Shown here in pieces: positions 10,452-62,879 of a stretch of DNA of 64,000 bases. The stretch is from a virus. A program made the position numbers and the translations under genes. The notes under the pieces were generated by a model, which saw only the letters and a list, made by a program, of their open reading frames with translations, was not told the origin of the DNA and did no database searches. The stretch is taken from positions 1 to 64,000 of the IMG/VR virus record IMGVR_UViG_3300030090_005562. One strand, given 5' to 3'. Numbering within the stretch: position 1 is the first letter of the stretch; each line of letters starts with the position of its first letter.

Positions 10452-10856
10452 TTGTATACAGAAATAAAAACCAAAATATCAAGTGGCGAAAAAACAATTG
10501 TTGTTGATGTAGATGGAGTCATTGCTGAAACAGAAGGGTGTGATTACAAAAATTCAAAACCTTTAAAATACGGAATTGAATGGGTTAACAAAAGGTATGA
10601 AGAGGGATATTATATAATAATACTTACAGCTAGATATGACAAGCTGGAGCTTGGAAACCTAGCTAGACAATATCACGCCGGATATATAGAGCTAGTTAAC
10701 TGGCTAGATAAATATGAAGTCAAGAGACATGAGGTAAGGATGGGAAAGCCTAGAGCATTTATGTATCTTGACGATAGAGGCGTTAGAATATCTGGAGATT
10801 CTGAGGCTGGCTGGAAACAAGCAGATAAATGCTTAGAGGAAAAGAAAAATGGCTAA
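10452..10856 (+). CDS. HAD-superfamily phosphatase-like protein, 134 aa
   Basis: Starts at TTG with AGGAG 9 bases upstream. Motif I is VVDVDGVIAE (DxDG), motif II IIILTARYD, and motif IV YLDDRG, the order of a minimal HAD hydrolase without a cap domain. Small phage HAD proteins include deoxynucleotidases and polynucleotide phosphatases (as in the 3-prime phosphatase half of T4 Pnk); the substrate cannot be set here. It sits between a recombination nuclease and a dehydrogenase within the replication operon, so a nucleotide or DNA-end substrate is more likely than a sugar phosphate. It overlaps the next gene by 8 bases. Confidence 0.7.
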   Translation: MYTEIKTKISSGEKTIVVDVDGVIAETEGCDYKNSKPLKYGIEWVNKRYEEGYYIIILTARYDKLELGNLARQYHAGYIELVNWLDKYEVKRHEVRMGKPRAFMYLDDRGVRISGDSEAGWKQADKCLEEKKNG

Positions 10857-11982
10857 TATACTAATACTTGGAGCAGGGGGCATCGGCCTACCAATCGCAT
10901 CGGCACTAAAGCACGAAGAATACAATCTTATTCTATCTGATTGCTCTCAAGACGCTATTGATAAAGCTAAGGATTATTTCGCTAGAACTAAGTTTGACAG
11001 TGAATGCTCCCTTGACTTTCATGTTGGCGGAGCAGAGGATTATCTGGATAAGAATAAATTAGACTTTGACATGGTAGTGTCAGCTTTGCCATACTACATG
11101 AACAAAGAAATAGCATTCGCGTGTGTTAGCGCTGGCGTAGCTTACGTTGACCTTGGCGGTCATGTAGACACAACCAATTATATTCGCAAGATTGCTGAGG
11201 AAGACGGCTGCGCTCCAGTAGCTAGCGACCAAGGATTAGCTCCAGGTTTGGTTAATATCTGTGCGGAAGAGGCTTTTGAAGCTGTTAAGGAAAACAAATA
11301 CCGTAGCGCAAAAATTAAGATGGCGGTAGGCGGTCTTCCAGAGAATAGAGGCTTGAACCCACTAGACTATATTGTTACTTGGTCTATTGACGGGTTGATT
11401 AATGAATATAAGGGAGAGGCGGAAGTTCTCTTGCGAGCAGAAAAGAAGAACGTACCCACACTCACCGGCCTAGAAACAATGACTGTTGACGGAGATGAGC
11501 TAGAAGCGTTTTACACATCCGGTGGAAGCTCTCACACAATTCAATCCATGTTTAACCAGACTTCTCGTCCAATACCTGACGTTACATACAAGACGTTGCG
11601 ATACCCAGGACATATGAAGATGGTGAAGTGGCTCATGGAAGAGATTGAGCTGGACCACATTGATTTGACACATCTGTTTAAGTACGGTTGTGCGGCGTTA
11701 GACGAAAAGGATATTGTAAAGTTCTATGTCGAGGCTACCAATGGGAACCTGTCTTACAAAAGAGAACACACGTTCTATGCGAGCGAAGAGTTCTCTGCTA
11801 TGCAGCGGTCTACCGCATACAGCGCAGCAGCGGCAATTCAGACAATGTATATAAATAGGCCAAACGATGGCGACTCTTTTTCCCTGGACTATTCATACTT
11901 CCGTAACGATTTGTTTCATGAGCGTTTCAGAGATGCTTTAAATAGAGACAGGCCAGAGAAAGAGAAAGAGTGGGTGGTCTGA
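10849..11982 (+). CDS. Saccharopine dehydrogenase / lysine 6-dehydrogenase-like oxidoreductase
   Basis: 377 residues. A Rossmann loop GAGGIG at 8-13 is followed by MVVSALPYYMNKEIAFACV, VAYVDLGGH and APVASDQGLAPGLVN, the signature run of the saccharopine-dehydrogenase-like family. Single-domain members of about 380 aa include L-lysine 6-dehydrogenase and carboxynorspermidine dehydrogenase. The reaction would be NAD(P)-dependent oxidation or reduction at an amino-acid-derived amine. It is surprising inside a phage replication operon, between a HAD protein and DNA polymerase. It could alter host lysine or polyamine metabolism, or supply a DNA-modification precursor; nothing decides among these. 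No frameshift is seen and the reading frame is full length. Confidence 0.78.
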   Translation: MANILILGAGGIGLPIASALKHEEYNLILSDCSQDAIDKAKDYFARTKFDSECSLDFHVGGAEDYLDKNKLDFDMVVSALPYYMNKEIAFACVSAGVAYVDLGGHVDTTNYIRKIAEEDGCAPVASDQGLAPGLVNICAEEAFEAVKENKYRSAKIKMAVGGLPENRGLNPLDYIVTWSIDGLINEYKGEAEVLLRAEKKNVPTLTGLETMTVDGDELEAFYTSGGSSHTIQSMFNQTSRPIPDVTYKTLRYPGHMKMVKWLMEEIELDHIDLTHLFKYGCAALDEKDIVKFYVEATNGNLSYKREHTFYASEEFSAMQRSTAYSAAAAIQTMYINRPNDGDSFSLDYSYFRNDLFHERFRDALNRDRPEKEKEWVV

Positions 11983-12848
11983 TGAGTGAAACAAGGAAAT
12001 GTATAGTATGTGGTCAAGATAAAAAATTAGTCAAATTCAGCAAGCGTATACACAAAGAAAAAGCGTCTTATGGCAAAACCTGTCATACTTGCGGCACTCT
12101 CATACGACGTTCAGAGATACTTAAAAAAATAATAAAATGTGAACAGTGTGGCGAAGAAAAAAAAATAAACAAATACCAAGTGTCTCATTCTTTACTTAGT
12201 GGCGGGGAGCTTGAAACAAAGTATTCCCCAGAGTGCAAAGAATGCATGGATAGAAACAAACGCGCAAGGAAGTCTGAGGAGAATTTTAAGAACAGTCGCT
12301 ATAGCACGGAAAAATTGCAGTTGTGTCGTAGGTGTGGAAAAGAAAAGGGTGCTGATTGTTTTTATGTAGACAAAAGAAGAAACAAAAACGGCAAGCCATA
12401 TAGGAAAAGTGAATGTATAGAGTGCATGAAAGAGCGCTCTAGACTTCAGTGGGTTGGCGGCAGAAAAGACACTTATTCTTATGAATACACACCTAGTAAA
12501 TTAAATAAAGAGATTAACCCAGGAGCGCTTACCAAAAAAGACTATCAAAAAAGGATGTTTCTTGCGGCAAGAGGCAGGGCAAAATCTAAGGGTCTTCCTT
12601 TTACCCTGAATGAAGAAGACGTCGTTATTCCAGATAAATGCCCTGTCTTCGGAATTGACATAGATGTGGGGGCGGCTAAATATGCACCAAATATACCTAG
12701 CATAGACAGGGTGGTTCCAGAATTAGGATATACAAAGGAAAATATAAGAATAGTTTGTTACAGAGCAAATAGATTAAAAAATAACGCTTCATTTGAAGAG
12801 CTAGAATTGATATACAACTGGATGAAAAAAGAGCTAGGTAAAGAATGA
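11982..12848 (+). CDS. HNH/His-Me-finger endonuclease with multiple zinc knuckles
   Basis: Start taken at ATG 11982 (MSETRKCIVCGQ), which overlaps the previous stop as TGATG; an upstream GTG at 11970 is less likely. Three or four CxxC pairs (CIVC, CHTC, CEQC, CKEC, CRRC, CIEC) form N-terminal zinc fingers. The C-terminal part has an ARGRAKSKGLPF helix, DKCPVFGI, then PSIDRVVPELGYTKENIRIVCYRANRLKNN, the pattern of phage HNH-like endonucleases (the SxDRxxPxxGY and NxxxxCxxxNxxK elements). Freestanding endonucleases of this kind are often homing enzymes. Its position directly 5-prime of the split polymerase genes (ATGA overlap) is notable. Confidence 0.75.
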   Translation: MSETRKCIVCGQDKKLVKFSKRIHKEKASYGKTCHTCGTLIRRSEILKKIIKCEQCGEEKKINKYQVSHSLLSGGELETKYSPECKECMDRNKRARKSEENFKNSRYSTEKLQLCRRCGKEKGADCFYVDKRRNKNGKPYRKSECIECMKERSRLQWVGGRKDTYSYEYTPSKLNKEINPGALTKKDYQKRMFLAARGRAKSKGLPFTLNEEDVVIPDKCPVFGIDIDVGAAKYAPNIPSIDRVVPELGYTKENIRIVCYRANRLKNNASFEELELIYNWMKKELGKE

Positions 12849-14803
12849 CATTTTTCCCACTTCATGTTCACAGCCACGATAGCCTTCTTGATGGTCTTAG
12901 TAAGCCTAAAGATATTGCTAAGAGATGCAAGGAACTTGGGCTAAAAGGATGCGCTCTAACTGACCACGGCGTTCTCTCTGGTGCAGTCGGTTTCGTTGAG
13001 GCCATGAAGTCTGCCGGACTAAAACCTATACTTGGATGCGAGTTCTATATCTGTGAGGGCGACCCTACTGACAAGGAGAATAGGACTCGCTCCAACACAC
13101 ACCTCGTCGTCCTTGCCAAGAATAAGCAGGGTTGGCAAGACCTTATTGCAGCAACCTCCCAGTCCAATCATCCAGACTATTTCTACTATGCTCCAAGACT
13201 AGACTTGGCTACGCTCAAGAAGTTCTGCACAGGCAACTGGATTGCATTTAGTGGACACATGGGTTCGCACCTAGCCAACGATATGTTCATAGACCATAAG
13301 GAAGCCTACTCTGCTCAAAGCTATGACGAAGCAACTAAGATGGTTGATAAAGATTGGGTGAATAAGGTTTCTAACAAAGCTAAGGAACTTGAGGATGTCT
13401 TTGGTAAAGGTAACTTCTTTCTAGAAATACAGCTAATAGACGTAGACAATCTACCGGCTTCTGGCGTAGTCGCAAAAGGCCTTAGATACCTAAGTAATAA
13501 AATTGACATTCCGTGTGTCGCAACACCAGACGCTCACTACGCTTATCCAGAGGATGCAGACGACCAAAGAGTTCTTCTCTCCAATCACCCAAGCATAGAC
13601 ACGCCTTTGAAAGACATTTACAAAAAGATGGTTTCAGGAGACGATATAAGCCTGGGAGCTTTCTTTAAGTCCAGAAATTATTACATTCCTGGGCATGATG
13701 AAATGATGAAACTTCACACAGAGGAAGAGGTTGCGAATAGTGAGAAGATTGCTGATATGTGTGAGGAATATACAATCACTGGAAAGCCAATGCCTCCTAG
13801 ATTTCCGCTGCCAGAAAAAGTAACGGCGATTGAAAGGTTAAGAGAAAGATGTCGTGAGGGATGGCAAAAAAGATGGCCTGAAATTAAAAAGGTGATAGAT
13901 TCCTCTAAACACACAAAAGAAGAGTACGCACAAAGATTTGAGATGGAAATATCTATTTTGGAAAATGCCAAACTAGCAGATTACTTCTTAATTGTTGACG
14001 ATATAATTCAGTGGGCAAGAAGTGACGGTCAGCTTACAGGGGCCGGTAGAGGCTCCGCAGACGGGTCTCTAATCCTGTATCTTTTAGAGGTAGGACATAT
14101 AGACCCAATTAAACATGACTTAATGTTCGAGCGATTTTACAACGCTGGGCGGAATACAGCAGGCAGAGTCTCTCTTCCTGATGTGGACATGGACTTTGAA
14201 AAGCTAGGGCGTGAACGTATAATTGGCTATATAAATGATAGGTTTGGTGAAGATAGAGTTTCTCAAATGATTACGTTTAGTAAAATGCAAGGTCGCGCTG
14301 TGCTGCAAGATGTAATGCGTGCGCATAGCGCATGCAGTCCAGACGAAAGAAACAGAATTACAAAGAATATACCAGATGAAGCAGATATTTCTGACCAACT
14401 TGAAGATATGCGTCAGGCAGACAAAGATTCTGGAGGCGATGGCAGCGCTAGTATTATTCAGTGGTCTTTAGAAAATAGGGAAGAAGATTTCAAGCAGTGG
14501 TGTTACATTGGAGAAAACGGCGACCTTCAAGGCCCAATGTCAAAGATATTTGAGCAAGCAATACGCATGGAGGGAACAAAGCGTTCTCGCAGCAAACACG
14601 CTGCTGGAATTGTGATTGCCAACGAACCTCTTGCAAAGATTTGCCCTATGGTATATGATAAAAGCTCTGGTGAAAGTATCGCCGGAATGGAAATGAATGA
14701 TTTGGAGTCTATGGGTCATATCAAATTTGACATTCTGGGTATTGCTATCCTTGATAAGATACATGGAGTCCAAGACCTTCTGTCAATAGGAGATTTTCGT
14801 TAA
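12845..14803 (+). CDS. dnaE: DNA polymerase III alpha, N-terminal fragment: PHP, palm and thumb
   Basis: 652 residues. The PHP domain keeps its metal ligands (HVHS near residue 8, ALTDHG, LGCEFY, TPDAHYA), so it may be an active exonuclease. The polymerase part has GAGRGSADGS, then the catalytic pair Asp446/Asp448 in LPDVDMDF, the segment RSKHAAGIVIANEPL, and the third catalytic Asp629 in IKFDILG. The protein stops 23 residues after Asp629, at the boundary where palm gives way to fingers in bacterial DnaE. It is not a random truncation: the remainder of the polymerase is encoded by 15528-17228. The stop overlaps the exonuclease ATG by one base. Confidence 0.92.
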   Translation: MTFFPLHVHSHDSLLDGLSKPKDIAKRCKELGLKGCALTDHGVLSGAVGFVEAMKSAGLKPILGCEFYICEGDPTDKENRTRSNTHLVVLAKNKQGWQDLIAATSQSNHPDYFYYAPRLDLATLKKFCTGNWIAFSGHMGSHLANDMFIDHKEAYSAQSYDEATKMVDKDWVNKVSNKAKELEDVFGKGNFFLEIQLIDVDNLPASGVVAKGLRYLSNKIDIPCVATPDAHYAYPEDADDQRVLLSNHPSIDTPLKDIYKKMVSGDDISLGAFFKSRNYYIPGHDEMMKLHTEEEVANSEKIADMCEEYTITGKPMPPRFPLPEKVTAIERLRERCREGWQKRWPEIKKVIDSSKHTKEEYAQRFEMEISILENAKLADYFLIVDDIIQWARSDGQLTGAGRGSADGSLILYLLEVGHIDPIKHDLMFERFYNAGRNTAGRVSLPDVDMDFEKLGRERIIGYINDRFGEDRVSQMITFSKMQGRAVLQDVMRAHSACSPDERNRITKNIPDEADISDQLEDMRQADKDSGGDGSASIIQWSLENREEDFKQWCYIGENGDLQGPMSKIFEQAIRMEGTKRSRSKHAAGIVIANEPLAKICPMVYDKSSGESIAGMEMNDLESMGHIKFDILGIAILDKIHGVQDLLSIGDFR

Positions 14804-15531
14804 TGAATTACAATTCTATATGTTGCTACGACTATGAAACCGGTTCTCCAAACTCCTCTACGTGTTCTATCATACAAATAGCCGCAGAGATGATACATGG
14901 CAGAAACCTTAATGTGGTTGACAAGTTCTCGGCTTATGTCAGACCAGACTTTGACGATAAAGAATCTACCACAGACGAAACTATAGACTGGCATTGTAGA
15001 AACAAGGGAGTTTCAAAGAAAAAGTTTGTAGACATGCTAAACGAATGTCCGCCAATCAGTATAGTATGGAAAAACTTTTCCTCTTGGGTTGACAAATACA
15101 ATTGGGGAAAGACTAATAAAAGTGGATTCCACGCACCTGTGTCTGCTGGCTACAACATACTCGGCTTTGATAACCCGATAACGGACAGGCATTGTAAATT
15201 GTTTGGCCCCACTGAGAAAGACAGACGAAACGGCGAAGAGAGGCCAAGAATATTTAATCAGATATACAGCTTCGATTTAATGCAGCATGTCTGGTATTGG
15301 TTTGAAAATAACAGCGAGCTTAAAAACCAAAAGCTAACAACAGTCTTAGAGTATATGGGCGTACCAGAAGAAGTTACCGCAAATGCTCACGATGCAGAGT
15401 TTGACGTTGAATGGACATCTAAGGTCATCATAAAACTTATGAAGACATCTAGGTGGATGACCGGATGGAACGAAGAAAAGCAAAAGAGAAGGCTTGAGTT
15501 TGCCAACTCTTTTGCACAGGAGTTCAAATGA
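14803..15531 (+). CDS. DEDDh 3-prime to 5-prime exonuclease (DnaQ/ExoI-like), nested between the two polymerase genes
   Basis: 242 residues. Catalytic residues are Asp10 and Glu12 in CYDYETGS, Asp123 in NILGFDNP, and His196 with Asp201 in NAHDAEFD, a complete DEDDh set. The longer central region and GFDNPITDRH resemble exonuclease I more than epsilon. Placed between dnaE fragments with 1-base and 4-base overlaps, it is very likely the proofreading subunit of the same replicase and may bridge the two polymerase polypeptides; that bridging role is inference. A general end-processing role remains possible. Confidence 0.85.
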   Translation: MNYNSICCYDYETGSPNSSTCSIIQIAAEMIHGRNLNVVDKFSAYVRPDFDDKESTTDETIDWHCRNKGVSKKKFVDMLNECPPISIVWKNFSSWVDKYNWGKTNKSGFHAPVSAGYNILGFDNPITDRHCKLFGPTEKDRRNGEERPRIFNQIYSFDLMQHVWYWFENNSELKNQKLTTVLEYMGVPEEVTANAHDAEFDVEWTSKVIIKLMKTSRWMTGWNEEKQKRRLEFANSFAQEFK

Positions 15532-17228
15532 CAAAAGTTAGATGGCCGTGCGGATGCGAGCTTCCGGTTAAGAATACTCCCGACCCAGATATGGTGATTA
15601 ACGTACAGTTTGGAGACACTTTGCCCAAAGGCATTGAGCTAGATGTTTACAACATCAATCTTAATTGCGAAGCTACATGGGATATGATATGCAGCGGGAG
15701 AACCAAGGGTGTATTTCAGTTAGAAAGCGCACTGGGTCGTCAGTGGGCAAAAAAACTCGAGCCCAGAAATATACAAGAGCTTGGAGCTTTGGGGGCTCTA
15801 ATTAGGCCTGGATGTCTCCGAGCTATGAGCGGCAATCCTCCTAAGAGTATGACGCAAAGATATTGCGATAGAAAACACGGAGTTGAAGAGGTCGTTTATC
15901 CTCATGAATCTTTAGAGCCAATACTTAAAAACACTCAGGGCGTTCTAACATTTCAAGAGCAAGCCATGAAGATAGCTGTAGTTCTGGCAGGATTTAACGA
16001 ACAGCAGGCGGATATTCTTCGTAAGGCAATCGGTAAAAAGAAAGCCGATGTTATGCATGAGGTTAAAAGTTCTTTTTTAGAGGGGGCTAAGAAAACAGGA
16101 ATAGTTTCACAGGAGCTTGCTGAAGAAATCTTTGGGTGGATTCAGGAGTCTCAAAGATACTCTTTCAATAAAAGCCATGCAGACGCATACGCTTTAAATG
16201 GATACTGGAGCGCGTTTTGTAAAACGCATATGCCGCTTGAGTTTTACTGCTCTTGGCTTAGAGGCGCTGCCTGGAAGGGTGCAAAGCAATATGAAGAAAT
16301 ATATGACCTAGTAAATGATGCAAAGGTAAATAATATAGACGTTCTTCCTCCAACTCTAGCTGACAAAAGAAACACATTCTACATTAAGGACAAAAAAGTT
16401 TACTTCGGTCTTTCAAGTATTAGGGGTATAGGCACTGCTGTAATTGACAAGATGTTGACCAAGCTAACTGAAATAGAAAACAAACTAAACAGAGGTATTG
16501 GGGCATGGATGTGGCTAGAGTATCTAAAGTACGGAACTGAGTGTGTATCATCCAACGTAACCGAAGGAATGATAAAGGCCGGAGCTTTAGACTTTTTTGA
16601 GCTTTCAAGAAATAGAATGCTTTACGAATATTCTATATGGGCACAACTCAGCCCCACAGAAAAGAAGTGGATTACAAATGAGTATAGCGGATATAAGCTT
16701 CTCGAAGCTCTAAAGGCTTGTCAACCAAAAAGGGTAATGAAGAACAAAGTACAAGTCGCTGGCGGCGGGTGCGTAAACGATAAACGCTCTGACTTTGTTG
16801 GAGACTTAATCACATCACTTAAAAATCCGCCTCATAAATTAGAAGACTCCATGGATTGGATTGCTTGGAATGAGCAAAAAACTTTGGGCGCCCCAATAAC
16901 CTGTAGCAGAGTAGACGCAATTGAGGAGGGTGTACAGGCTAATTGCACCTGCAAAGAATTCATAACTACAAAAAGAAAAGACTACATGAAGTTCGCTGTT
17001 GAGGTCACTAAAGTAAAGGTGGTCAAAACAAAAAAAGGTAAGAACCCAGGTCAAGAAATGGCTTTTCTTACCGTCGAAGACAATAGTTGTTCATTGGATG
17101 ATGTTGTTTTTTTTCCAGACAAATTTCAAGAGTGTCGTGACGCTATATACGAGGGCAATACTATACTAATTCATGGAGAAAGGGGCAGAAACGACTCTCT
17201 GGTTGCCCAGCAGATATGGCAAATCTAG
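15528..17228 (+). CDS. dnaE: DNA polymerase III alpha, C-terminal fragment: fingers and OB-fold
   Basis: 566 residues. After about 50 residues with a WPCGCELPV cysteine pair of unknown role, the sequence joins the DnaE fingers at NLNCEATWDMICSGRTKG followed by VFQLES. It continues with RPGCL, the TFQEQAMKIA segment, DILRKAIGKKK and YSFNKSHADAYA, all expected fingers signatures. The last about 100 residues (KFAVEVTKVKVV, VVFFPDKF, ILIHGE) form the OB-fold. The bacterial tau-binding C-terminal domain appears to be absent. Combined with the N-fragment (1218 residues) the total is close to bacterial DnaE. It must pair with 12845-14803 because it has no catalytic aspartates. Confidence 0.92.
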   Translation: MTKVRWPCGCELPVKNTPDPDMVINVQFGDTLPKGIELDVYNINLNCEATWDMICSGRTKGVFQLESALGRQWAKKLEPRNIQELGALGALIRPGCLRAMSGNPPKSMTQRYCDRKHGVEEVVYPHESLEPILKNTQGVLTFQEQAMKIAVVLAGFNEQQADILRKAIGKKKADVMHEVKSSFLEGAKKTGIVSQELAEEIFGWIQESQRYSFNKSHADAYALNGYWSAFCKTHMPLEFYCSWLRGAAWKGAKQYEEIYDLVNDAKVNNIDVLPPTLADKRNTFYIKDKKVYFGLSSIRGIGTAVIDKMLTKLTEIENKLNRGIGAWMWLEYLKYGTECVSSNVTEGMIKAGALDFFELSRNRMLYEYSIWAQLSPTEKKWITNEYSGYKLLEALKACQPKRVMKNKVQVAGGGCVNDKRSDFVGDLITSLKNPPHKLEDSMDWIAWNEQKTLGAPITCSRVDAIEEGVQANCTCKEFITTKRKDYMKFAVEVTKVKVVKTKKGKNPGQEMAFLTVEDNSCSLDDVVFFPDKFQECRDAIYEGNTILIHGERGRNDSLVAQQIWQI

Positions 17229-44555: not shown

Positions 44556-45069
44556 GATATATAAGCCTAACTCTAAAGGAAGCGGTGCGGCTTCCAAGTT
44601 TCAATGTAGAACTAAGTGGAAGACTGTAGACGGGGTTGATTATGCAGACTTAATACTGTTTTTAGAAACTGCTCAACAAACTGGGTACGACTCTAATAAT
44701 AACGCATCGTTTGCTTGGTCTTCAGGAGATAAAAACAAAGACAAGTCTGTTACAATGAAATTGGGTCTTCCTGATATAGGAGAGATACTTTTGGTGTTGA
44801 AAGGAAGAAAGAAGTTCGTTGGACCAGAGCCAAAACAGGGAAGAAGTGTTGAGCCTGGGCTTTATCATCAGAAAAAGAACGGCAACACTAGCCTTAGACT
44901 AAAGTGGAGCGAGGGTAGGCTGTATTTAAACCTTTCTTCACAAGATGCAAAGAAAAATGTAACCAAGGTTTCTCATAGCATAACTTCCGCAGAGGCGGCG
45001 GTTCTTGAGTCTCTACTTGACCATTTTATAGTTGAGTATCATGGCTGGGCTTACTCTAATAAGACGTAG
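44518..45069 (+). CDS. Probable single-stranded DNA-binding protein (Whirly/PC4-like)
   Basis: 183 residues. A beta-rich body with basic N-terminal segment, GLPDIGEILLVLKGRKKFVG, and a C-terminal unit (SLRLKWSEGRLYLNLSSQ, VSHSITSAEAAVLESLLDHFI) typical of PC4/Whirly-like ssDNA-binding folds: curved sheet plus terminal helix. It may coat ssDNA at forks, since no canonical OB-fold SSB was found in the window. The stop codon TAG lies inside the 3-prime end of the opposing virion gene: the last 14 bases overlap on the other strand. Confidence 0.5.
   Translation: MTQEKRILAKEYRIYKPNSKGSGAASKFQCRTKWKTVDGVDYADLILFLETAQQTGYDSNNNASFAWSSGDKNKDKSVTMKLGLPDIGEILLVLKGRKKFVGPEPKQGRSVEPGLYHQKKNGNTSLRLKWSEGRLYLNLSSQDAKKNVTKVSHSITSAEAAVLESLLDHFIVEYHGWAYSNKT
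45056..45069. other. Convergent gene overlap without terminator space
   Basis: The plus-strand ssDNA-binding-like gene ends (TAG) at 45069 and the minus-strand 2542-residue virion gene ends at 45056, so the two coding regions share 14 bp. No hairpin with a T-run is visible between the blocks, so transcript ends must lie inside the opposing gene or rely on a factor. Confidence 0.85.
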
Positions 45070-48000
45070 TGGTTGTTCCACCGTCATCGCTTGATGTGGT
45101 TGTTGTGGTGGATGAGGTTGTTGTTGTTGTTGTTGAGGTTGACGACGCTCCTCCTCCTCCTCCGCCATCAGAGCCATAGTCTCCCATAAAAATCGTCTCT
45201 CCTAAGACTAGCCCTTGTGGCATATAATATGTCTTGCCACTAATTTCAACCTTATCCGCTCTATGAACAGGAGAATTTATCTTTGCAGTTTCTTCGTTCT
45301 CAAAAACTGGATAATGCCCCTCGACCACATTTGATTGAGTAGACGTATCTACTGTATTTGCCTCTCTATCTCCAGCATCAAAATTTTGCCCAACACAAGC
45401 AGCTAGCCCTTTGGCGCAGCTTCTTCCCTTTCCTTCGTTATAATCAGCGTGATGAATCTGAAGCATCTTTTGTTTTTCTGCAACATTATCCCAAACTTTT
45501 ACTAAATCAATCTCTGCGTTATTTAATGGATTGGTAGCGCCCTGGAATTTATTTACACCTATTGCAAATTCTGCGCCAGCAGCGGCGGAAAAAGCCCTGT
45601 CGTGCTTTCCATCAACGGGCTGAATATGTACTATTGTGTCCTGCCCCTGATGTTCCACAAGGCCGATTATACCGTTTTTCCCTTGGCCTCCCTCCGCTTC
45701 ATTCGCTTCTTTGTCGTTAGCATTATGCCAGAAGAAATAATGCGTCCACTCATCACTTGCATCAATGCTACCGTATTGAGTACCCCCCTGTTTCTCTGGA
45801 ACACTAATATACTCAGTCCCTGAATCCCCTTCACTTGAAACAACAAAAATAAGCTTGCCGTTTTTATAGAACACTCCCCACCCGCCAAGTGTTTGGGGGT
45901 ATTCGCCATTCTGACCCATTCCGTAACAATGCGTTACAACACCCTCCATTTTGCCGGATGGCGCTCCTGTTTTTTTAAACCAAAATGATACTGCTACTCC
46001 ATAACCATGCTTGTGGGGATAACCATCAATTTGTCTGGCTATAGGAGGACCAACACCTCTTCCCCATGTGCCCCCATGAGACTCGGCCATATTCCAGCAC
46101 AAATTTTCCTCTTGTCCGCTTTTACTTGTGAAGAAAGCAGTTCCGTCAAATTTTGCAGATACATTTGTAAAATCAGAAAAATGGCCGTTGCCGTCTGGAT
46201 ATACGTGATAGCCGCGTGGTGTCTGTGCGCTTCCAAAAGATACCAAATCTTTATTTCCATTTCCAGCAGGAGCGACCCCTCCGTTGACGCCAGTTAGATG
46301 GTGTGGCTGAAGCTCTTGACCTATAGATTCGCATCCTCTGGCCTCAAATTCATAGCAAGCGCATGGAGAAAAATTATTGGCTGGTATGGTTTCTTGTGCT
46401 TGAGCTTGTGGGTTGCAATTTGTTTCCTCTCTATTTTCTTGCTCGCGTATATCTTTTGCTACTAAGTGTGATGGTTTTCCAGGGGTAACATAACTCTTAT
46501 GCAATGTCTTTATAACATATTGGTCTTCTGGAGAAAAGCTTGTGGGAGACGACTCTAGTATTTGATTTTTAAACTGATAGAATATACTGTCTGTGGCATC
46601 TCTTCCGTCGCAATATTTTTCTACGTCTTGACCCATTCCTAATACTTGAGTCAACTCTTCCATTGTGACGCTTTTTCTTCGAACCGGATGTTCGACCGGA
46701 CTAGGGTCATTGTTTCCTACCCAAACAAAGCCAGACTTAATAAATTTATTTGCATCAGCTCCAGGAGCGTAAAGCTGTCGATAGAACCCCGCAGTTCCCG
46801 CAGGCATACCGGGTGATTGGCCAAGGGCATTTTGAAATATTTCATTAAATTTTTCAACTTCAGAAAATATTACAATTATAGCGCCATTAAAAAGACTTAC
46901 GGTTCCAGTGGTATAAACTAAAGTTGGGCCCTCACCGCCCTTACTCATCAGCTCATTTAATTTGCTTATAGTTGTCTTCAAAGTTTGAACGTCTTCAGCT
47001 ATTGCGTTAATTTCGTTTCCGTCGTCGTCATACCAAAGAGCTTTTACTGGTACGTTTGTTTTCTTAAATCTTCTTACAGGTGCTGCCGCACCTTCTAATT
47101 CTGTACCCCCACAAACAGTTTGAAAATGAGGAAGCTCATTGTCTATTAGGGCTGGTTCTGGCGGTATTCCAGCTCCAAGCTCATTTGTACCACAGGCTTC
47201 TTCAATACAAACTTCAAATTTTTCATCTATACATCCTCTTATTGAGCCATAGCTATTTGGTCCACCAGTTCCTTCCCCTGCTCCAATAGTATTTCCCTCA
47301 TCATCAACAGGGTCCGCTGCCACGCTAGGAGGTATGTTTCCCGCGTTGTCTCCAACTAATTCATCGCAGCATTCTGGGCCGACAACACGTAATCTTAAAA
47401 ATTCAAACGAGCTTGCCTGCACTCTTTCAGTGATGTTATGATGATTCAATATTTGATTGCTAGGCACCCAATTAGTAATTCCATCAGAAATATCATTATC
47501 TGTGCTTGTCGCATAAAGTCTAGATGTTCCTTTTGCTGGGTCTACCTCTGGTCCTTGAACAGCGTTTTGGTCATAAGAAAACTCTGGACCGTAAAGATAC
47601 CAAGTTCCACCTTCATGAGCAACTCTGTAAGAGCCTCCGTCCCGCTTATTCCATGGAGAGCCCTTGCCGTTTGGGTTGTTTGTTTTATCGTCGCATGGAG
47701 AAGAAAGTTTTTTTGTGGAGCCACAAGCTACGCCGCCAACCTGTAAGCCGCCGCATTCATTTAAAGCCTGAAAAACCCATTGCACACCAGCATAAGTCCC
47801 CACCCAACTACTGGCGTTATCTGAATTAGCAATGATGCTTAGTGTTACGGGTCCCGAAGCCTCGCCAAAATTATGCTGTAAAACCACTGGGTCTTCCGCA
47901 CCCGGCAAAATAGTAACCTCTTCAACAGTTATATTTGTTTCCCCAGGTCTCTCCCATATTTTTGGTGTGACAATAGCTCCAGAAGCTGTTCTAGGCTCTA

Positions 48001-51000
48001 AGCAAAAAGCTGTATTAGAGTCATCTTTTTTAGTAACACACCAAGCAGGTACATTTTGAACATCTTCTGCGCTAGGGGCGCAATTATCAGGAGCCTCATA
48101 TCCAGAAACATAGCAGCCTCTAAAGTATTTGGCTGGTCCGGAAATACCGACTGTTAAAGACTCTGTGACATCTATGCACAAGTGAGTTGCGGTTGCAATT
48201 TTACCATCATTTCCACCTCCATCTACAGGTGCTGAGCCATACTTCTTGCAGCAGTAGCGGTATTCGGGCTTACTATTGGTTGCTGGTACGATATGCGTTG
48301 AGCCCCCATCTGCATGGCAATCTTCAATAAATTTACCTACTTTTGGGTCAGTATCTGGACCATATATTCCACCGGTTGGAACCCCCTCTCCTTCGTCACA
48401 AGAAGGGGCGTCTCCTCCAGGGTCTCCTGGATAGTTGTCTTCTCCACTTGATTCAGGCTCACAGCAGAAATTATAACGCGGTATGGGGGATGATGATGCT
48501 GTTAGTTCAAAGTTGCTCAAATCCTGAACACCAGAAAGCTCTTCCCACCCACCCTTTACAGTTTCTTCTGGACAATCAGGGAAATGTGAATTTGGGTCGG
48601 ATAGCTTGTACATAATAATCGGAAACCCAGGCGGTCCAGGGTTATAAGGAAACCATGTCCATATAGACCATTGAGTTACAGGGGTGGTGGCAATTGCGGT
48701 CGTCCAAAGTCTAATAAAATAGCGACCATCATCTTTTGCCCAAATATTTCTTCCGCCCTCACCGCCAAAGTCTATTGGTGTTCCGTCAGGCTTTGTTGTG
48801 GGATAATTTTCTGGCGCAAGATATTGATATGTACCATTAATTTTGAACACGGAGTCGTTTGGGAATCCAGACGCAGTTATAGTTGTGCTACAATCTAAAG
48901 GGGTTCGAGGCGCCGGTTGTCCCGGAATATGCAAAACAGTTCCACCTCTTTGCTCACACTCTTGTGTAAACTTCACCACATCTTCGTCACCGGTATTACC
49001 ATATATTCCATCTGTTGCCTTTTTGTTGCTTCCACACGCTTCGTTTGTATCCTCTCCGCCTGGAGGAGGAGGATAAAAGTTTGCTGGCCCAGAAGTTTCG
49101 TCTCCGCATATATCATATATCCCACCACAAGCAGCCGTGCCGCATACAACAGGACCAGCACGAGTGGTGCTACTGCAACGGTAATCATCGGATGTAACGT
49201 CGCTGACACCGCAACCGTCAACATAACTCAAAGTGTATGTAACGCTCGGGATACCGCTAGAAAATTCGACGGGCATAGATTTTATATCTAAAAGTGCATA
49301 TATAAAAGAAAGCTCTCCTTCCGGAACATTTTGATTTTCAATCCGAATATTGCAAAAGTCTTTCTTACCCCGTGTTTGTCTACCGACAATCACTATAGCG
49401 TTTTCTTTAAGGCCGCCACCAACCCCAGTATTGCGTTCTATCTGTCTAACAAACTCCACAATGTTGCCTTCTGCAAACGTCAGCATTTCCGGCGGACCAT
49501 CAAAAGCCTGATAATCTGAGAGTGGTATGTCCTGGCCATCAGAGTCGAGAGACCGATAAAAAGAATAACAGCCAGCTAAAGGACCGTCTCCGACAATGCA
49601 AAAAGCCACATCATCTTCGTAATTAGTCGTGCAGCAACCCTCAGACGACAAAAGACACTCTTTGATTGGGACCAGTTCAAATTTGCCGCCTCCATATGAA
49701 GCGATGAAAGAATCGCCTTCTTTATCAAACACCATAGTAAGATTCTCGCGATACGTTAAACTAAAATACCAACTGCCGTACTGCTCGACAAGTGTAATCT
49801 TGGGATTTCCAAAAATCGGGCGAACCTGCACCCAACTCACCGTATCGCCTTCAACATTTCTAGTGTAACACCCTTCAACCAAATCTGAAATTTTTACATT
49901 CGAGCCATCAGGAAGCTCTACTTTATCATTTACCGAAGAAATATCATCCGTTACACAAAATGCTGGAATTTTTTTTATGTTTTCAATATTTTGATTGCAC
50001 GGTATACTACCAATAGTATTCTCGCCCTCTCCTGGAGACAAAGAGTCTCCTTCGCCAGAAGTTGGAGGAGACGCAGAGTCACTCCCACTGCTTGGTTCTT
50101 CTGGAGTTGTCGGCGGTTCTTCCGGAATAGGCGGCGTGCTTTCGTCACAATCGTCAGATTGGCAGCATGTCCCACTAGATATTTGAACATTTGAATTTTG
50201 GTGAGGAATGCTTACTGATTGCCAAGCATAAATGGAGTCGTTTACAGTTGGTGGTGAATCTGAAATAGTACTTCCAAGGTATGGATGGTAAAATAAAACC
50301 GAATGATGATGACCCGAACCCGTGCAGGATGCGTTGGTAAGAGCTGATAATTTACTACTAATATCAGCGGCAGTATCTTTACTGGATATAACACTTTCGT
50401 ATAGCATTGAGATTATCTTCTTATCAAGGCAGAAAAAGTCGAAGGGGAAATAGCCCTCGTCACTATACCGTGCGGTTGATTTGAAAAGGACGGTATCAGC
50501 TGTACCCTGATGAAAATAGTCCGCATCGTCATCGTCTATTTGAGGGGATTTTAGCAGTCCGAGAGACTTAGCTATAGCTTTTCTTATAATTAAATTTCTC
50601 TCGTCCCCTGTTCTATCTTCGTTAATATAAATCTGAGCGCGTGAAAAGTTCTCAGAATCGAAATAATTTCTAACGTCGACGAAAAATCTCTGGTTCGCGG
50701 GCATAAGACCTCTAGCAGCTAGACCGTCGCTGCTATAATAACCTCCATTTCGGTAGCCTTTATTAACAAATTTAAACCTATCCTCGTCGCAAAAAAATAA
50801 ATGAATTGCTCCGGTAGGAGGTTCTGTTCCAGCAGTTTGTCCAGCTGTTGTAACTTCAATAGTTTTTCCAATATCAAGCTTACTAAAGAGAGAGTTTATA
50901 TCTGCAATAACTTTGTTAATCTCGGTTAAATCGTCGGAGGTTGCCCCCTCTATAATGTTTATGTAAACATTTTCATCGGCCCATTTTTTTATTGTTTCCG

Positions 51001-52684
51001 AGGGTTCGTCTTGGATTGCCGCACCCAAAGCTATTCTAGAAAATAACTCTATTTCTTTATCTGTATATTTACGTCCGATAATGTCTTGACCGCTACCGCC
51101 AATAAACCCTATAACCCATACCGGCTCTTTAAAATCTTCATCAACACAGAAGCATTTATTGTAATCGGTTAAAAATATTAGAGGCCTCTCTCCATTAGGG
51201 CCTCTTGTAGTCTCTCCGCAAATATCTGTTTTTTTATAGATAGGTCTGGTGCGGGTTGTATTATAAATAACATCTGTAGCAGTGCTGGTTGTTAGTGATG
51301 ATTTTTGATAAGTTCCATTGAAGAGGTCTGAATTTTCTCCTACAACCCCGCTAACACAAAGAAAATTATTTAAATCTTGTTCATCTTGAGAGCCACCAGG
51401 AACACAAGGATACTCTTCGTTATCTCCTGTTGTCGTTTCATCTCCTTCCTCTACCGGCCCATCATTTCCAGCAGAATCGCTATCTGCATTGTTTGAGCCG
51501 TCTTCTGGATGAGAGGCGCCGTCGCCGCTAGGCGGAGTAAAGGGTGTAGAGCCTTCTCCATCGGAAGGCGGCTCTGATGAGTTTTCTTCTTCTGGCGGGC
51601 TGTCTGCGTGTGGGCATGCATTAACTGTAAGCTTATATTCAATGAGGCCACCACTCCCAGCGGGTGGAAACAAATCAACCTCCGCTGGATTTCTAACTGT
51701 CGTCGATTCAGACACCGCCACTACGGTTCTATCAGAACTCGCATCTGTTTTTTTATATAGTGTCCATATATCCTCCTCCCTAATCAATCCGTTTTCTGGA
51801 ATGAGCGAATATATGGGATATTGGCCGCTGCATCGTTCGAGTTCCGTGGACTCGAAAGGACAACTGTAATAAATACATCTGCTTACGCCAAGACTTTGGC
51901 TATAAACTGGCTTAGGATGGCCTGGAACAGTAACTCTAAAGAAGGCGCCCTCTGAATCAGCTAAGCTATTTTCCACATCGGGCTCATTCAAAAACTTTAT
52001 AAACATTCTAACTTTATAAGGAGCGTTGCCGCATGTAGGGCTGCCAAGGGGAATTGGAGGTCCCGATAAACTAGCGTTAAAAGTAGCGATATGATTTTTA
52101 TATCTAATTGTAATTTTCGCTACGGCACTTTCTCCAGGATGATAAAGATATGCATAGACAACTGCGGTTCTATCTCCAGAGCTTCTTGCAATTTGCTCTC
52201 CGTTTATAAACATAAATTCTCTTTGCTCGCCGTTCTCAAGAAAAGCGTCAGAGAGATTCATGAAATAACTCAGATTTTTTTGATACATGAAAGACTCTAC
52301 AACGTGCGTGCGAAAGCTACCGGCGTCCAAGTGTGGTAGAATTTGTTTCCACTCTGTTAAAGAAACCCAAAGAGGTTTTTGAGGTTCTACATCTCCTGTA
52401 AACCAATCAAAGTTCGGATATCCTGGATTTCCTAAGTCGTCGACTAAACACTGACCCGCTTGTTCCCCTAGATATTCAGCCTCTAACTGCAAATCGGAGT
52501 GGCTTTCACTATCAAGGAGTTGCGCTTCAATCCTTGCGGTTGCAGGAAATGAATCTGGCGGCAGGGGGGTTCTGTATGCGCCTCGTGCTGTCAAAGTTTT
52601 TTTCAATTGTCCAGTTGAATCTGTTAAACATAAATATGGTCTCTCGTAGCATCCAAAGCTTAAATCATCAGATTCATGAACCAT
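45056..52684 (-). CDS. Giant virion adhesin/tail protein: Cys-rich modules, LamG-like domain, Ser/Thr tail
   Basis: 2542 residues. Regions include an N-terminal beta-rich half, two Pro/Ser/Thr/Glu-rich linkers (about residues 357-424 and 845-895), and Cys-rich modules with paired cysteines (for example TCCQSDDC, FCCEPE, YRYCC). Two related units occur near residues 1222-1255 and 1433-1465 (DGIYGNTGDEDVVKF versus GGIYGPDTDPKVGKF), and a LamG/ConA-like lectin domain at about 2175-2410. The end has a six-Gly hinge and a tail of Ser and Thr ending SY. Lectin-like, disulfide-rich design suggests an exposed tail fibre or surface adhesin. The gene lies at the end of the late virion operon. Confidence 0.8.
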   Translation of the reverse strand: MVHESDDLSFGCYERPYLCLTDSTGQLKKTLTARGAYRTPLPPDSFPATARIEAQLLDSESHSDLQLEAEYLGEQAGQCLVDDLGNPGYPNFDWFTGDVEPQKPLWVSLTEWKQILPHLDAGSFRTHVVESFMYQKNLSYFMNLSDAFLENGEQREFMFINGEQIARSSGDRTAVVYAYLYHPGESAVAKITIRYKNHIATFNASLSGPPIPLGSPTCGNAPYKVRMFIKFLNEPDVENSLADSEGAFFRVTVPGHPKPVYSQSLGVSRCIYYSCPFESTELERCSGQYPIYSLIPENGLIREEDIWTLYKKTDASSDRTVVAVSESTTVRNPAEVDLFPPAGSGGLIEYKLTVNACPHADSPPEEENSSEPPSDGEGSTPFTPPSGDGASHPEDGSNNADSDSAGNDGPVEEGDETTTGDNEEYPCVPGGSQDEQDLNNFLCVSGVVGENSDLFNGTYQKSSLTTSTATDVIYNTTRTRPIYKKTDICGETTRGPNGERPLIFLTDYNKCFCVDEDFKEPVWVIGFIGGSGQDIIGRKYTDKEIELFSRIALGAAIQDEPSETIKKWADENVYINIIEGATSDDLTEINKVIADINSLFSKLDIGKTIEVTTAGQTAGTEPPTGAIHLFFCDEDRFKFVNKGYRNGGYYSSDGLAARGLMPANQRFFVDVRNYFDSENFSRAQIYINEDRTGDERNLIIRKAIAKSLGLLKSPQIDDDDADYFHQGTADTVLFKSTARYSDEGYFPFDFFCLDKKIISMLYESVISSKDTAADISSKLSALTNASCTGSGHHHSVLFYHPYLGSTISDSPPTVNDSIYAWQSVSIPHQNSNVQISSGTCCQSDDCDESTPPIPEEPPTTPEEPSSGSDSASPPTSGEGDSLSPGEGENTIGSIPCNQNIENIKKIPAFCVTDDISSVNDKVELPDGSNVKISDLVEGCYTRNVEGDTVSWVQVRPIFGNPKITLVEQYGSWYFSLTYRENLTMVFDKEGDSFIASYGGGKFELVPIKECLLSSEGCCTTNYEDDVAFCIVGDGPLAGCYSFYRSLDSDGQDIPLSDYQAFDGPPEMLTFAEGNIVEFVRQIERNTGVGGGLKENAIVIVGRQTRGKKDFCNIRIENQNVPEGELSFIYALLDIKSMPVEFSSGIPSVTYTLSYVDGCGVSDVTSDDYRCSSTTRAGPVVCGTAACGGIYDICGDETSGPANFYPPPPGGEDTNEACGSNKKATDGIYGNTGDEDVVKFTQECEQRGGTVLHIPGQPAPRTPLDCSTTITASGFPNDSVFKINGTYQYLAPENYPTTKPDGTPIDFGGEGGRNIWAKDDGRYFIRLWTTAIATTPVTQWSIWTWFPYNPGPPGFPIIMYKLSDPNSHFPDCPEETVKGGWEELSGVQDLSNFELTASSSPIPRYNFCCEPESSGEDNYPGDPGGDAPSCDEGEGVPTGGIYGPDTDPKVGKFIEDCHADGGSTHIVPATNSKPEYRYCCKKYGSAPVDGGGNDGKIATATHLCIDVTESLTVGISGPAKYFRGCYVSGYEAPDNCAPSAEDVQNVPAWCVTKKDDSNTAFCLEPRTASGAIVTPKIWERPGETNITVEEVTILPGAEDPVVLQHNFGEASGPVTLSIIANSDNASSWVGTYAGVQWVFQALNECGGLQVGGVACGSTKKLSSPCDDKTNNPNGKGSPWNKRDGGSYRVAHEGGTWYLYGPEFSYDQNAVQGPEVDPAKGTSRLYATSTDNDISDGITNWVPSNQILNHHNITERVQASSFEFLRLRVVGPECCDELVGDNAGNIPPSVAADPVDDEGNTIGAGEGTGGPNSYGSIRGCIDEKFEVCIEEACGTNELGAGIPPEPALIDNELPHFQTVCGGTELEGAAAPVRRFKKTNVPVKALWYDDDGNEINAIAEDVQTLKTTISKLNELMSKGGEGPTLVYTTGTVSLFNGAIIVIFSEVEKFNEIFQNALGQSPGMPAGTAGFYRQLYAPGADANKFIKSGFVWVGNNDPSPVEHPVRRKSVTMEELTQVLGMGQDVEKYCDGRDATDSIFYQFKNQILESSPTSFSPEDQYVIKTLHKSYVTPGKPSHLVAKDIREQENREETNCNPQAQAQETIPANNFSPCACYEFEARGCESIGQELQPHHLTGVNGGVAPAGNGNKDLVSFGSAQTPRGYHVYPDGNGHFSDFTNVSAKFDGTAFFTSKSGQEENLCWNMAESHGGTWGRGVGPPIARQIDGYPHKHGYGVAVSFWFKKTGAPSGKMEGVVTHCYGMGQNGEYPQTLGGWGVFYKNGKLIFVVSSEGDSGTEYISVPEKQGGTQYGSIDASDEWTHYFFWHNANDKEANEAEGGQGKNGIIGLVEHQGQDTIVHIQPVDGKHDRAFSAAAGAEFAIGVNKFQGATNPLNNAEIDLVKVWDNVAEKQKMLQIHHADYNEGKGRSCAKGLAACVGQNFDAGDREANTVDTSTQSNVVEGHYPVFENEETAKINSPVHRADKVEISGKTYYMPQGLVLGETIFMGDYGSDGGGGGGASSTSTTTTTTSSTTTTTSSDDGGTTTTSY
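45117..45134. repeat. (GTT)6 trinucleotide repeat encoding Thr on the minus strand
   Basis: Six perfect GTT units; on the coding strand they read ACA/AAC codons in the Thr-rich C-terminal tail of the giant virion protein. A neighbouring tract at 45148-45162 has five CTC units that encode Gly. Both are candidates for slipped-strand length variation. Confidence 0.85.
45148..45162. repeat. (CTC)5 trinucleotide repeat encoding the Gly hinge
   Basis: Five tandem CTC units, read as Gly codons on the minus strand, forming most of the six-Gly hinge before the Ser/Thr tail. Confidence 0.8.
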
Positions 52685-52685
52685 T

Positions 52686-54323
52686 TTAAATACCCTCCCA
52701 AGCAGTTCCGGATAAATCGCATCTATTGATGGCGTCTAATAAAACACAGACTGGGTGAGGCACGTACTCTAAAACTTCAATTTTCAATCTTGTTGTTCTT
52801 GGAAGTTCTTCAGGAAAAGAAATCATAGCGTCATTTAATTCTGGAACAGACCTATCCCAGCTATTTTGCGTCCTTACTCTATAATATGGAACGTCTTGAA
52901 CTCCATGCTGTGTATAATCTGGAAGGCCTATCAAATTTTTAACCTCACACATATCAAACGCTTCAAGCTTTGGTATAGTAATTGGATAGTCCCATTTTGC
53001 ATTAGTAACAACAAAATTTTTATATCTACTTATATCTGAGTTATAGAAATTGCTTAGAGAGCCATTTTCACAGAAAGGAACATAAACCTCATTAAGGTCA
53101 TTGACGCTGCTAGTTTGTGGTATTTGTATCCATCTTGGTTTCGTCGCCTTTAAAGCGTACTTAACTCTAAGTTGGGATGGTTCCTGATTCTGTCCATCCT
53201 GCTCTTCTTCAACATCAAGATAAACATTTAAATCTCCAATGCGACTGCCGTCTCGTGCAACTGCGTAAGAAAGAGTTGGATTTGAACCAAGCTGAATAAA
53301 TTCTGTTCGTAGGAAAAAGCCTCTGCCATAGGCCCTATTTGCGCTGCCTTGCCCGTCTGCTGAAGTTTCTGCATAAAGATAATAGTCGCCACTGTTACCT
53401 GTTTCTAGACCAGTGTTACTACTGGGCGTGCCTCCGCTGTCTCGATTCCACCTTCCATTATTAGTGGCGGTCTCTATCGGAACCCAGTCAACGTCGTCGT
53501 AACTAGAAATATCTCCATACTTATCTATGACATCGGTCCCCACTCCACTACCGTCGCTGGTTTCCCATCCTTCGGGCACTCCATTTTCAAATGAATAATT
53601 TGTTCCATCAATGTTTATATCGTCTAGTTGTAAATCAGCCCTAAAAGTGAAACCTTCAGACTGTTGAACGTAATGAAAAACAAGTTTAACTTTTTTGTTA
53701 CTGTAACTAGAAAGGCCAGAGACCGTCCTAGTCTCCCAAACCCTGGCGGTTGTTCCAGGCAAAGAATCTAAAGACTCTGTTAACCCTCCTGGCTCTGTAG
53801 ACGGACATCGCTCATAAAGCGGATTTGGTATCCACATAGCAGGGTGAATCATCCATCTAAATACCCACTTTGGAGTATTGTAAGTGCTATCTAGAGTGAG
53901 GAAGAAGTCAGAGCGATTTGTTCCGTCCCAGTAACCATTAACCCTTGAGCCCCTGTAAACACTCCAATCATAAACATTATTTGGAATATGATAGTCTGGG
54001 AAAACAAATGGAAAGTCTGTTGGGGCTAAGCTCTCTTTGAGATAATATGTAGTTACAGGAGATATGTTAAAGGAAACTCTTTCTTGAAGTATCCTGCAAG
54101 ACATAAATGCTGTTTCACCCCTACCCTGCTCATCTCTTGATTGATATAAGTTTCTAGCGTGAGAGCCTGTAATGTAATCAATGTATTTTTCAAGCTCGTC
54201 TTTATTTACGGCCTCATAAATACCCATTGGGTACATATCAGTTCTATTTGCAAGTGGTATAGGGTCTCCAGGACTTTCATCGTGAGTGACCCTTATTTTA
54301 GTAGGCACTCTAATTTCTGACAC
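52686..54323 (-). CDS. Virion structural protein with a MAM-like domain, 545 aa
   Basis: Starts at GTG (54323). Residues about 279-373 match a MAM-like fold (meprin/A5/mu type): an opening DWVPIE, then SGDYYLYAETSADGQGSANRA, a RTEFIQLGSNPTLSYAVA strand region and GSRIGDLNVYLD. Flanking regions are beta-rich with Trp and Asp. The rest carries no enzyme motif. It lies one base from the giant adhesin and downstream of the 213-aa gene in the virion operon. Probably a tail or decoration protein that contacts a surface partner; MAM domains are mainly known from animal adhesion proteins and some bacteria. Confidence 0.7.
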   Translation of the reverse strand: MSEIRVPTKIRVTHDESPGDPIPLANRTDMYPMGIYEAVNKDELEKYIDYITGSHARNLYQSRDEQGRGETAFMSCRILQERVSFNISPVTTYYLKESLAPTDFPFVFPDYHIPNNVYDWSVYRGSRVNGYWDGTNRSDFFLTLDSTYNTPKWVFRWMIHPAMWIPNPLYERCPSTEPGGLTESLDSLPGTTARVWETRTVSGLSSYSNKKVKLVFHYVQQSEGFTFRADLQLDDINIDGTNYSFENGVPEGWETSDGSGVGTDVIDKYGDISSYDDVDWVPIETATNNGRWNRDSGGTPSSNTGLETGNSGDYYLYAETSADGQGSANRAYGRGFFLRTEFIQLGSNPTLSYAVARDGSRIGDLNVYLDVEEEQDGQNQEPSQLRVKYALKATKPRWIQIPQTSSVNDLNEVYVPFCENGSLSNFYNSDISRYKNFVVTNAKWDYPITIPKLEAFDMCEVKNLIGLPDYTQHGVQDVPYYRVRTQNSWDRSVPELNDAMISFPEELPRTTRLKIEVLEYVPHPVCVLLDAINRCDLSGTAWEGI

Positions 54324-54333
54324 AGTAAATCCT

Positions 54334-54975
54334 CTATAGATATTCTAAAGAGAAGAATAAGCCATATTGAGTTTTATTACCAATAGAATCAGGGCTAGCA
54401 GAAATAGCTGCATACCAATCATGTCTAGCAGACTGTTTAGTTGATATAACGCTAACGCCATCTCCCGCATAAAAGCCGCTAATTCCAGGAGAGTTGGCAA
54501 ATGCCGCAACAACACCAGAGCCTTTAGGCGTTATCCATTGGCTGTCTCCAGAGCCAGTGGCAAACTGTGTTACTCTAGGGTGAATAATTTCAGCAACTTT
54601 AGTCGTTACACCAGACGCAGGATTGTTAATGTTAGTTCTGTCGTATATTCTCATCTCACAGTTTTGCGTTTTAACTTTACTTGAGTGAGTGAATCTAATG
54701 TTTAGAGTCGCTTGATAATTTGGAATTGCTTGAAGGCCTATTCCGCTCGACGCAGCGCCAATAATACCGCTGCCAATATTCAAAAACTTTATGTTTTGAG
54801 CTTGGGCGCCTTTTGTTGCTCCTGTGCCATCAGACACAAAAGTTGTCCCTTGATAAGCTCCAACTTCAACACTAGAGCCAAATCCAGCACTGCCAAAAAA
54901 AGCAAGTCCTGAGCCGCCTAGTTTTAAGTCATAATCAAAGCCTGTTTGATTTATAAGAAAGTCTATTTGTGCCAT
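54334..54975 (-). CDS. Virion structural protein, 213 aa
   Basis: A Gly/Ser-rich, beta-looking protein (GSGLAFFGSAGFGSSVEVGAY) with repeated aliphatic strands (SGVVAAFANSPGISGFYAG). It is small for a virion protein and could be a fibre tip, decoration or head-tail component. No enzyme motif. It starts at ATG 54975 behind a good Shine-Dalgarno (AGGAG) and the candidate late promoter at 55000-55009. Function is inferred only from the surrounding operon. Confidence 0.6.
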   Translation of the reverse strand: MAQIDFLINQTGFDYDLKLGGSGLAFFGSAGFGSSVEVGAYQGTTFVSDGTGATKGAQAQNIKFLNIGSGIIGAASSGIGLQAIPNYQATLNIRFTHSSKVKTQNCEMRIYDRTNINNPASGVTTKVAEIIHPRVTQFATGSGDSQWITPKGSGVVAAFANSPGISGFYAGDGVSVISTKQSARHDWYAAISASPDSIGNKTQYGLFFSLEYL

Positions 54976-54999
54976 TTTAAAATATCTCCTGTTATGGGA

Positions 55000-55009
55000 A
55001 TATACACCA
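55000..55009 (-). promoter_or_regulatory. Candidate late promoter -10 region (TGGTGTATATT)
   Basis: On the minus strand the sequence reads TGGTGTATATT, with TATATT as a possible -10 hexamer about 25 bases before the ATG at 54975 and an AGGAG site in between. The same TGGTGTATAnT occurs upstream of 62833. No clear -35 is evident. Confidence 0.4.
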
Positions 55010-55010
55010 T

Positions 55011-55253
55011 TTATTGTTGTTTAGGCCATTTGTTCTCAGGGCAGTCTTCACTTCTCCACCAAGCCTTTTTTGAAAGAACACAGCCGCATTTAATGCATTC
55101 GCCGTCTTTGTGATATTCGCAGGCGTTGCACGCATTTAATCTCTCTATATATTGTTCTAATGATACATCTTTAAATCCATCTTCAGCATGTTTTTTAACA
55201 GCTTTTGCAAAATTTGTTGCTTTTTTTATTATTCCTGGTTTATTATCATTCAT
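55011..55253 (-). CDS. Small Cys-rich protein, 80 aa
   Basis: A basic N-terminal helix (KKATNFAKAVKKHAE) is followed by a compact zinc-type cluster: CNACEYHKDGECIKCGC, then a later Cys in SEDCPENKW. This pattern recurs in small tailed-phage proteins of unknown role. It could be a zinc-stabilised structural or assembly factor. It lies between two virion genes in the late operon and starts at ATG 55253 with GAGGAG upstream. Confidence 0.6.
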   Translation of the reverse strand: MNDNKPGIIKKATNFAKAVKKHAEDGFKDVSLEQYIERLNACNACEYHKDGECIKCGCVLSKKAWWRSEDCPENKWPKQQ

Positions 55254-55284
55254 TTTTTTTCTCCTCTTGTTTAAGTGCCCCAGT

Positions 55285-56937: not shown

Positions 56938-56946
56938 TTTTTATCC

Positions 56947-61017: not shown

Positions 61018-61036
61018 TTTCCTGCTTCCTCTTTAT

Positions 61037-62833: not shown

Positions 62834-62869
62834 TATATGATTTCTCCAAAAAATAGAATTCTATACATA

Positions 62870-62879
62870 CTATACACCA
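62870..62879 (-). promoter_or_regulatory. Candidate late promoter -10 region (TGGTGTATAGT)
   Basis: Minus-strand TGGTGTATAGT about 37 bases before the ATG at 62833, with TATAGT as a possible -10 and a GGAG site downstream. It shares TGGTGTATA with the site at 55000-55009. It also contains the stop codon of the upstream gene. Confidence 0.4.

Follow-up and report, generated by a model that had tools for sequence, protein, structure and literature searches.

The window analysed here is the first 64 kb (64,000 nucleotides) of the 148,761-base viral record IMGVR_UViG_3300030090_005562. Three open reading frames (ORFs) lie on its plus strand at positions 12845-17228, in the order polN, exo and fing. 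The first, polN (12845-14803), codes for a 652-residue protein carrying the PHP, thumb and palm of the DNA polymerase III (PolIII) alpha subunit; exo (14803-15531) codes for a 242-residue DEDDh 3'-5' exonuclease and separates the two polymerase pieces; and fing (15528-17228) codes for 566 residues comprising the fingers, HhH and OB fold of alpha. At the polN/exo junction (14788-14805, plus strand), an AGGAG motif is followed by a 1-base stop/start overlap (TAATG), and at the exo/fing junction (15518-15531, plus strand), AGGAG is followed by a 4-base start/stop overlap (ATGA). The ORF coordinates thus agree with the 1- and 4-base overlaps given in an earlier note on this DNA, and both exo and fing have their own AGGAG upstream of an ATG. 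Sigma-70 and terminator scans yielded nothing above chance. An assembly artefact was rejected, as the same three ORFs occur on independent contigs at 96% identity, and on others down to about 35%.

The domains of the two polymerase pieces were assigned with Pfam, PDB profiles and predicted folds, and additionally with PHROG for polN. Pfam recognised PHP and DNA_pol3_alpha in polN, and DNA_pol3_finger and HHH_6 in fing; the OB fold of the latter gives only a weak Pfam hit, while its predicted fold is clear. All the domains, from PHP and palm/thumb to fingers, HhH and OB, are present in DnaE order. The polN profile match corresponds to residues 7-637 of Taq PolIII alpha (2hpi) and the fing match starts at its residue 640, the two pieces tiling the Taq protein through the OB fold with neither duplication nor loss; fing has no sequence for the alpha region beyond that fold. 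The cut (Taq 637 | 640) falls in the linker entering the fingers, and the alignment to the DnaE structure therefore supports the earlier note, which had placed the split at the palm/fingers boundary. The AlphaFold models of PolN (pLDDT 91.8; Foldseek match 2hpi, E 2.7e-44) and Fing (pLDDT 94.1; Foldseek match 7pu7, E 6.8e-24) are confident and match DnaE structures of Thermus, M. tuberculosis and E. coli. Concerning the first 34 residues of Fing (15528-15629, plus strand), which carry a CGC motif and predicted short strands according to the alignments and the model, they do not align to intact DnaE; this extension is found in part of the clade described below, and is missing from the remainder. 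To our knowledge, a replicative PolIII alpha subunit normally consists of one chain. The single-chain criterion of a family C (DnaE type) catalytic subunit is not met here, the subunit being encoded by two ORFs with another gene between them.

The earlier note had also assigned all three palm aspartates to the 652-residue protein, which was said to end 23 residues past the last of them, and the fingers and OB fold to a separate 566-residue protein. Both statements stand, the second on Pfam, PDB profile and fold. Residues D446, D448 and D629 lie in stretches of polN aligning to the Taq palm, and none of them varies among the 166 distinct polN relatives (166/166). As for the exonuclease, the claim of a complete DEDDh gene in the gap is confirmed by the ORF, by PHROG 192 ('DNA polymerase exonuclease subunit', E 5.8e-20) and by the residues D10, E12, D123, H196 and D201; the match to RNase_T (Pfam) is below cut-off and that to the PolC exonuclease (PDB profile) is weak. 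The DEDDh residues are kept in 147 of 153 exonucleases, the other six being gapped at N-terminal sites; every exonuclease sequence covering the sites retains them.

The search of other phage genomes for the same split and order, proposed in the earlier note, was conducted on IMG/VR with P0001, P0003 and profiles of each piece, using the best 80 hits each; the loci obtained are a sample of the nearest relatives and not a census. At least 249 loci with all three genes were found, some of them from the same contig, representing 147 distinct exonuclease sequences. All of these sampled loci (at least 249) show the order polN-exo-fing on one strand, and none of them in this clade has a fused polymerase. 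In the genome collection, palm and fingers are in one ORF in 74 of the best 80 hits and three separate genes occur in two (L185 and L186); these two contigs, 8 and 25 kb long, come from MAG bins and are probably phage DNA. A search of 50,697 phage records yielded no isolate belonging to the clade; among the matches listed, those to fing do not exceed about 36% identity and cover only part of the protein, and exo had no match in this phage collection at E 1e-5. The clade is apparently widespread and uncultured, and common in the sampled viral contigs. All split members with the exonuclease form one clade (SH-aLRT 100 in an 87-row tree; 100/100 in a 31-row tree), which sits on a long stem. It is inferred that the split with the exonuclease has a single origin, at the root of the clade, and that the probable route was the insertion of an exonuclease gene into a permissive linker between two domains of an intact polymerase; no intermediate between the intact polymerase gene and the split arrangement with exo was found.

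Between the window and two of its relatives (L003 and L006), dN/dS ranges from 0.014 to 0.035 for polN, exo and fing, and between these two relatives from 0.020 to 0.047, with synonymous sites near saturation in some comparisons. The evolutionary distances of the three genes correlate (r 0.72-0.84), as expected for any linked genes. Judging from the sequences, the polN-exo-fing arrangement is old, conserved and under strong purifying selection. These observations leave practically no room for decay, according to which an insertion broke the gene and the pieces are remnants: nothing was found in its favour beyond the fact that breakage of genes by endonucleases is common in phages, whereas the same break occurs in 147 distinct sequences with the catalytic residues all kept and dN/dS below 0.05. 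A pseudogene was also rejected. The loss of catalytic residues, which would have refuted the earlier note, was seen in neither piece, here or in the relatives. Its reading as a purposeful three-polypeptide replicase is borne out as the preferred explanation, provided that 'purposeful' is taken to mean that selection maintains the arrangement, as the conserved order and cut site and the dN/dS values indicate; an advantage of the split has not been shown.

The content of the gaps varies among relatives. In the sampled loci, polN and exo are separated by -14 to 2491 bp, and exo and fing by -59 to 3639 bp; since these lengths use the most upstream start codon, the overlaps are upper bounds. Unrelated cargo genes come and go, e.g. 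three other genes in the polN-exo gap of L007, and most members have one small ORF in that gap. Of 125 such small ORFs (e.g. in L070 and L101), 75 belong to one family and 33 to another; neither PHROG nor, above its cut-off, Pfam gave a match, and these conserved ORFs could possibly be extra replisome subunits. A gene of the uracil-DNA glycosylase superfamily lies between polN and exo in close relatives (L006, 8955-9545), and is missing from the window and L003. Blast comparison with L003 and L006 showed this gene, and an HNH gene upstream of polN (11985-12845 in the window), to be clean insertions at gene junctions. Finally, a 206-kb contig (IMGVR_UViG_3300024358_000009; L321 and L074) has two copies of the polN-exo-fing block, with 88% identical polN copies and an interrupted fingers gene in the second copy; it is either chimeric or carries a duplication.

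Such variable content (no gene at all in some gaps, several different ones in others) is consistent with separate polypeptides but not with an intron or intein, and it bears on the idea that the break is repaired, an intron (at the RNA level) or a split intein (at the protein level) rejoining palm and fingers into a full-length alpha. Phage polymerase genes do get split by introns and inteins (PMC12363816), and in L020 (4624-5314) a LAGLIDADG-like reading frame, possibly an intron, further interrupts polN beside its PDIDVDF catalytic motif. At the locus itself, however, the 1- and 4-base overlaps leave no space around exo for an intron, each of exo and fing starts at its own ATG with an AGGAG before it, and no intein domain was detected in polN or fing (Pfam, E 0.01). 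A split intein was rejected, there being no such domain and no intein-sized extra sequence other than the 34 residues on Fing. No homing endonuclease or intron was found at the break, where the gap contains the exonuclease and also, in most members, a small ORF; the absence of an Rfam match is weak evidence, as Rfam did not recognise the L020 interruption either. All in all, repair of the break receives very slight credence.

As for the rest of the 148.8-kb record, it holds one DNA_pol3_alpha domain, one fingers domain and one RNase_T exonuclease. An intact alpha (dnaE), a PolA and a PolB were not found in it, and no beta clamp, gp45 clamp or delta-prime-type clamp loader was recognised; the record may be incomplete, so that the absence of a gene is no proof. 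Subject to this, the full-length dnaE elsewhere in the genome, the other refutation envisaged in the earlier note, did not appear. The same results are relevant to the proposal that PolN (e.g. as a nuclease) and Fing (e.g. as a DNA-binding factor) have independent jobs, and that another polymerase of host or phage copies the genome. It is true that no complex has been shown, and that a phage without a recognised clamp or clamp loader in its record may lean on host replication parts. Yet the palm aspartates and the fingers motifs are both conserved, which makes sense only within one active site, and no other polymerase was found in the record. Separate jobs are thus considered improbable. Inspection by eye alone revealed no clamp-binding motif.

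The explanation that we favour, with a high degree of confidence, is a heteromeric family C phage replicase composed of PolN and Fing with Exo as its proofreader. PolN and Fing would be translated separately from one operon and would associate non-covalently via the natural palm-fingers interface, thereby rebuilding the alpha subunit, while Exo, co-expressed through the overlapping genes, would act as an epsilon-like proofreading subunit. Since the arrangement is old, conserved and strongly selected, it is very probable that the pieces come together as a functional enzyme, although both the complex and its polymerase activity (DNA synthesis) are inferred. This replicase has neither biochemical nor proteomic data nor a model of the complex in its support, and the conservation of neighbouring genes is no proof of contact. 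A further point against it is that exo need not adjoin polN, as is shown by the small genes and cargo between the two.

The role of the exonuclease can be further considered in relation to the PHP domain, in which nine metal-ligand positions were assigned on the basis of what is generally known of PHP domains. All nine are filled in the PolN of the window. They are all kept in 95 of the 166 distinct relatives, and none or one is kept in 62, so that the site is lost in over a third of the members, while the linked exonuclease is present throughout. From this contrast, Exo is probably the proofreader, its partnership with PolN and Fing being inferred from sequence alone, and on the simplest reading the PHP nuclease activity is not needed. 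At their C-terminal end, most exonucleases have a short, conserved basic-aromatic motif, whose strict pattern, chosen after inspection, is present in 114 of 153 tails vs. 0 of 1839 internal windows. The tail of E. coli epsilon docks on alpha, and by this analogy the exonuclease tail is a natural candidate for docking on alpha; in the absence of binding data, the inference is suggestive only. It is also conceivable, though rather unlikely, that Exo holds palm and fingers together besides proofreading, forming an obligate three-subunit PolIII core. If so, polymerisation would need the proofreader and could be controlled by assembly, and the locus would represent a third way to wire proofreading into a family C replicase, after the free epsilon and the PolC-internal exonuclease.

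Several known systems resemble this locus in part. Intact DnaE/PolIII alpha proteins (Taq 2hpi, E. coli 2hnh and M. tuberculosis 7pu7) share its domains, their order and the catalytic residues, and can be aligned from the first residue to the OB fold, whereas the window has two polypeptides, an exonuclease gene between them and nothing past the OB fold. PolC also has an exonuclease coding sequence inside the polymerase coding region; it is, however, a single polypeptide whose PHP region contains the exonuclease, while the proteins of the window are separate and the exonuclease is at another position. Cyanobacterial dnaE is likewise in two pieces, but its break is presumably at a different site from that of the window, and its products are rejoined by protein splicing, whereas the pieces described here have no intein domain. 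Another catalytic subunit of family C in two proteins is that of the group 2.2 jumbo phages, where a minimal PolIII alpha, lacking the other PolIII domains, is split into distant genes with the NTP-binding and Mg-binding parts separated, alongside a family B polymerase (Iyer et al. 2021, PMC7824862). In the window, by contrast, PHP and OB are present, all the aspartates are in one piece, the genes are adjacent and no PolB was found. Finally, introns and endonucleases commonly split phage genes (PMC12363816, PMC8351571); examples are T4-like polymerase or reductase genes (gp43 and nrdA), split by homing endonucleases (cited in PMC8351571). There too, a phage enzyme is made as separate parts, but the insert is a selfish endonuclease, whereas here it is an exonuclease of related function, fixed throughout a deep clade. 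The polN-exo-fing arrangement was not found as such in the full-text literature, most subscription papers being beyond reach, and the passages on 'split' and 'phage' of a 2026 survey of bacterial polymerases contain no such case (PMC12926913).

A parallel among isolates is Rossellomorea phage phiT1 (PV767480.1). Its alpha (gp20/gp19/gp18) is broken at the site equivalent to the palm-fingers cut described here, and the gap contains a 49-aa gene in place of the exonuclease. Among the matches listed, its nearest phage relative is Moorella phage MTATph1 (36%), which is intact. In the 87-row tree, phiT1 falls outside the clade among intact phages, while in the 31-row tree it adjoins the clade weakly (80/37). 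One or two origins of the palm-fingers split are therefore possible, and phiT1 is not taken as a clearly independent split. As suggested by phiT1, a cut at the palm-fingers joint seems to be tolerated. Other phage PolIII alpha genes are interrupted elsewhere, either inside the fingers (L023, PV686781.1, by an endonuclease gene; L024, CP101896.1) or before the palm motifs (L279, MH884512.1).

As a natural split replicase, the locus could be used to test which interfaces are sufficient for activity, and the clade allows the loss of the PHP nuclease site to be compared with a fixed DEDDh exonuclease. In annotation, the polN and fing genes will be called partial or broken.

With regard to the remainder of the window, long ORFs (up to 2542 aa) occupy the minus strand at 45056-63802; by position and size they are probably structural, and none of the six that were scanned had a PHROG match. 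Sugar-related genes form a long run at 17250-45069; the ten ORFs tested there include glycosyltransferases, a C-methyltransferase and a DegT-type aminotransferase. On the other side, a saccharopine dehydrogenase-like gene (10849-11982) adjoins the replication genes and is kept in L003 and L006. Directly upstream of polN, and not in the break, is the HNH/endonuclease VII-like gene (about 11982-12848), which is precisely absent from L003 and L006 and is therefore probably a mobile free-standing endonuclease.
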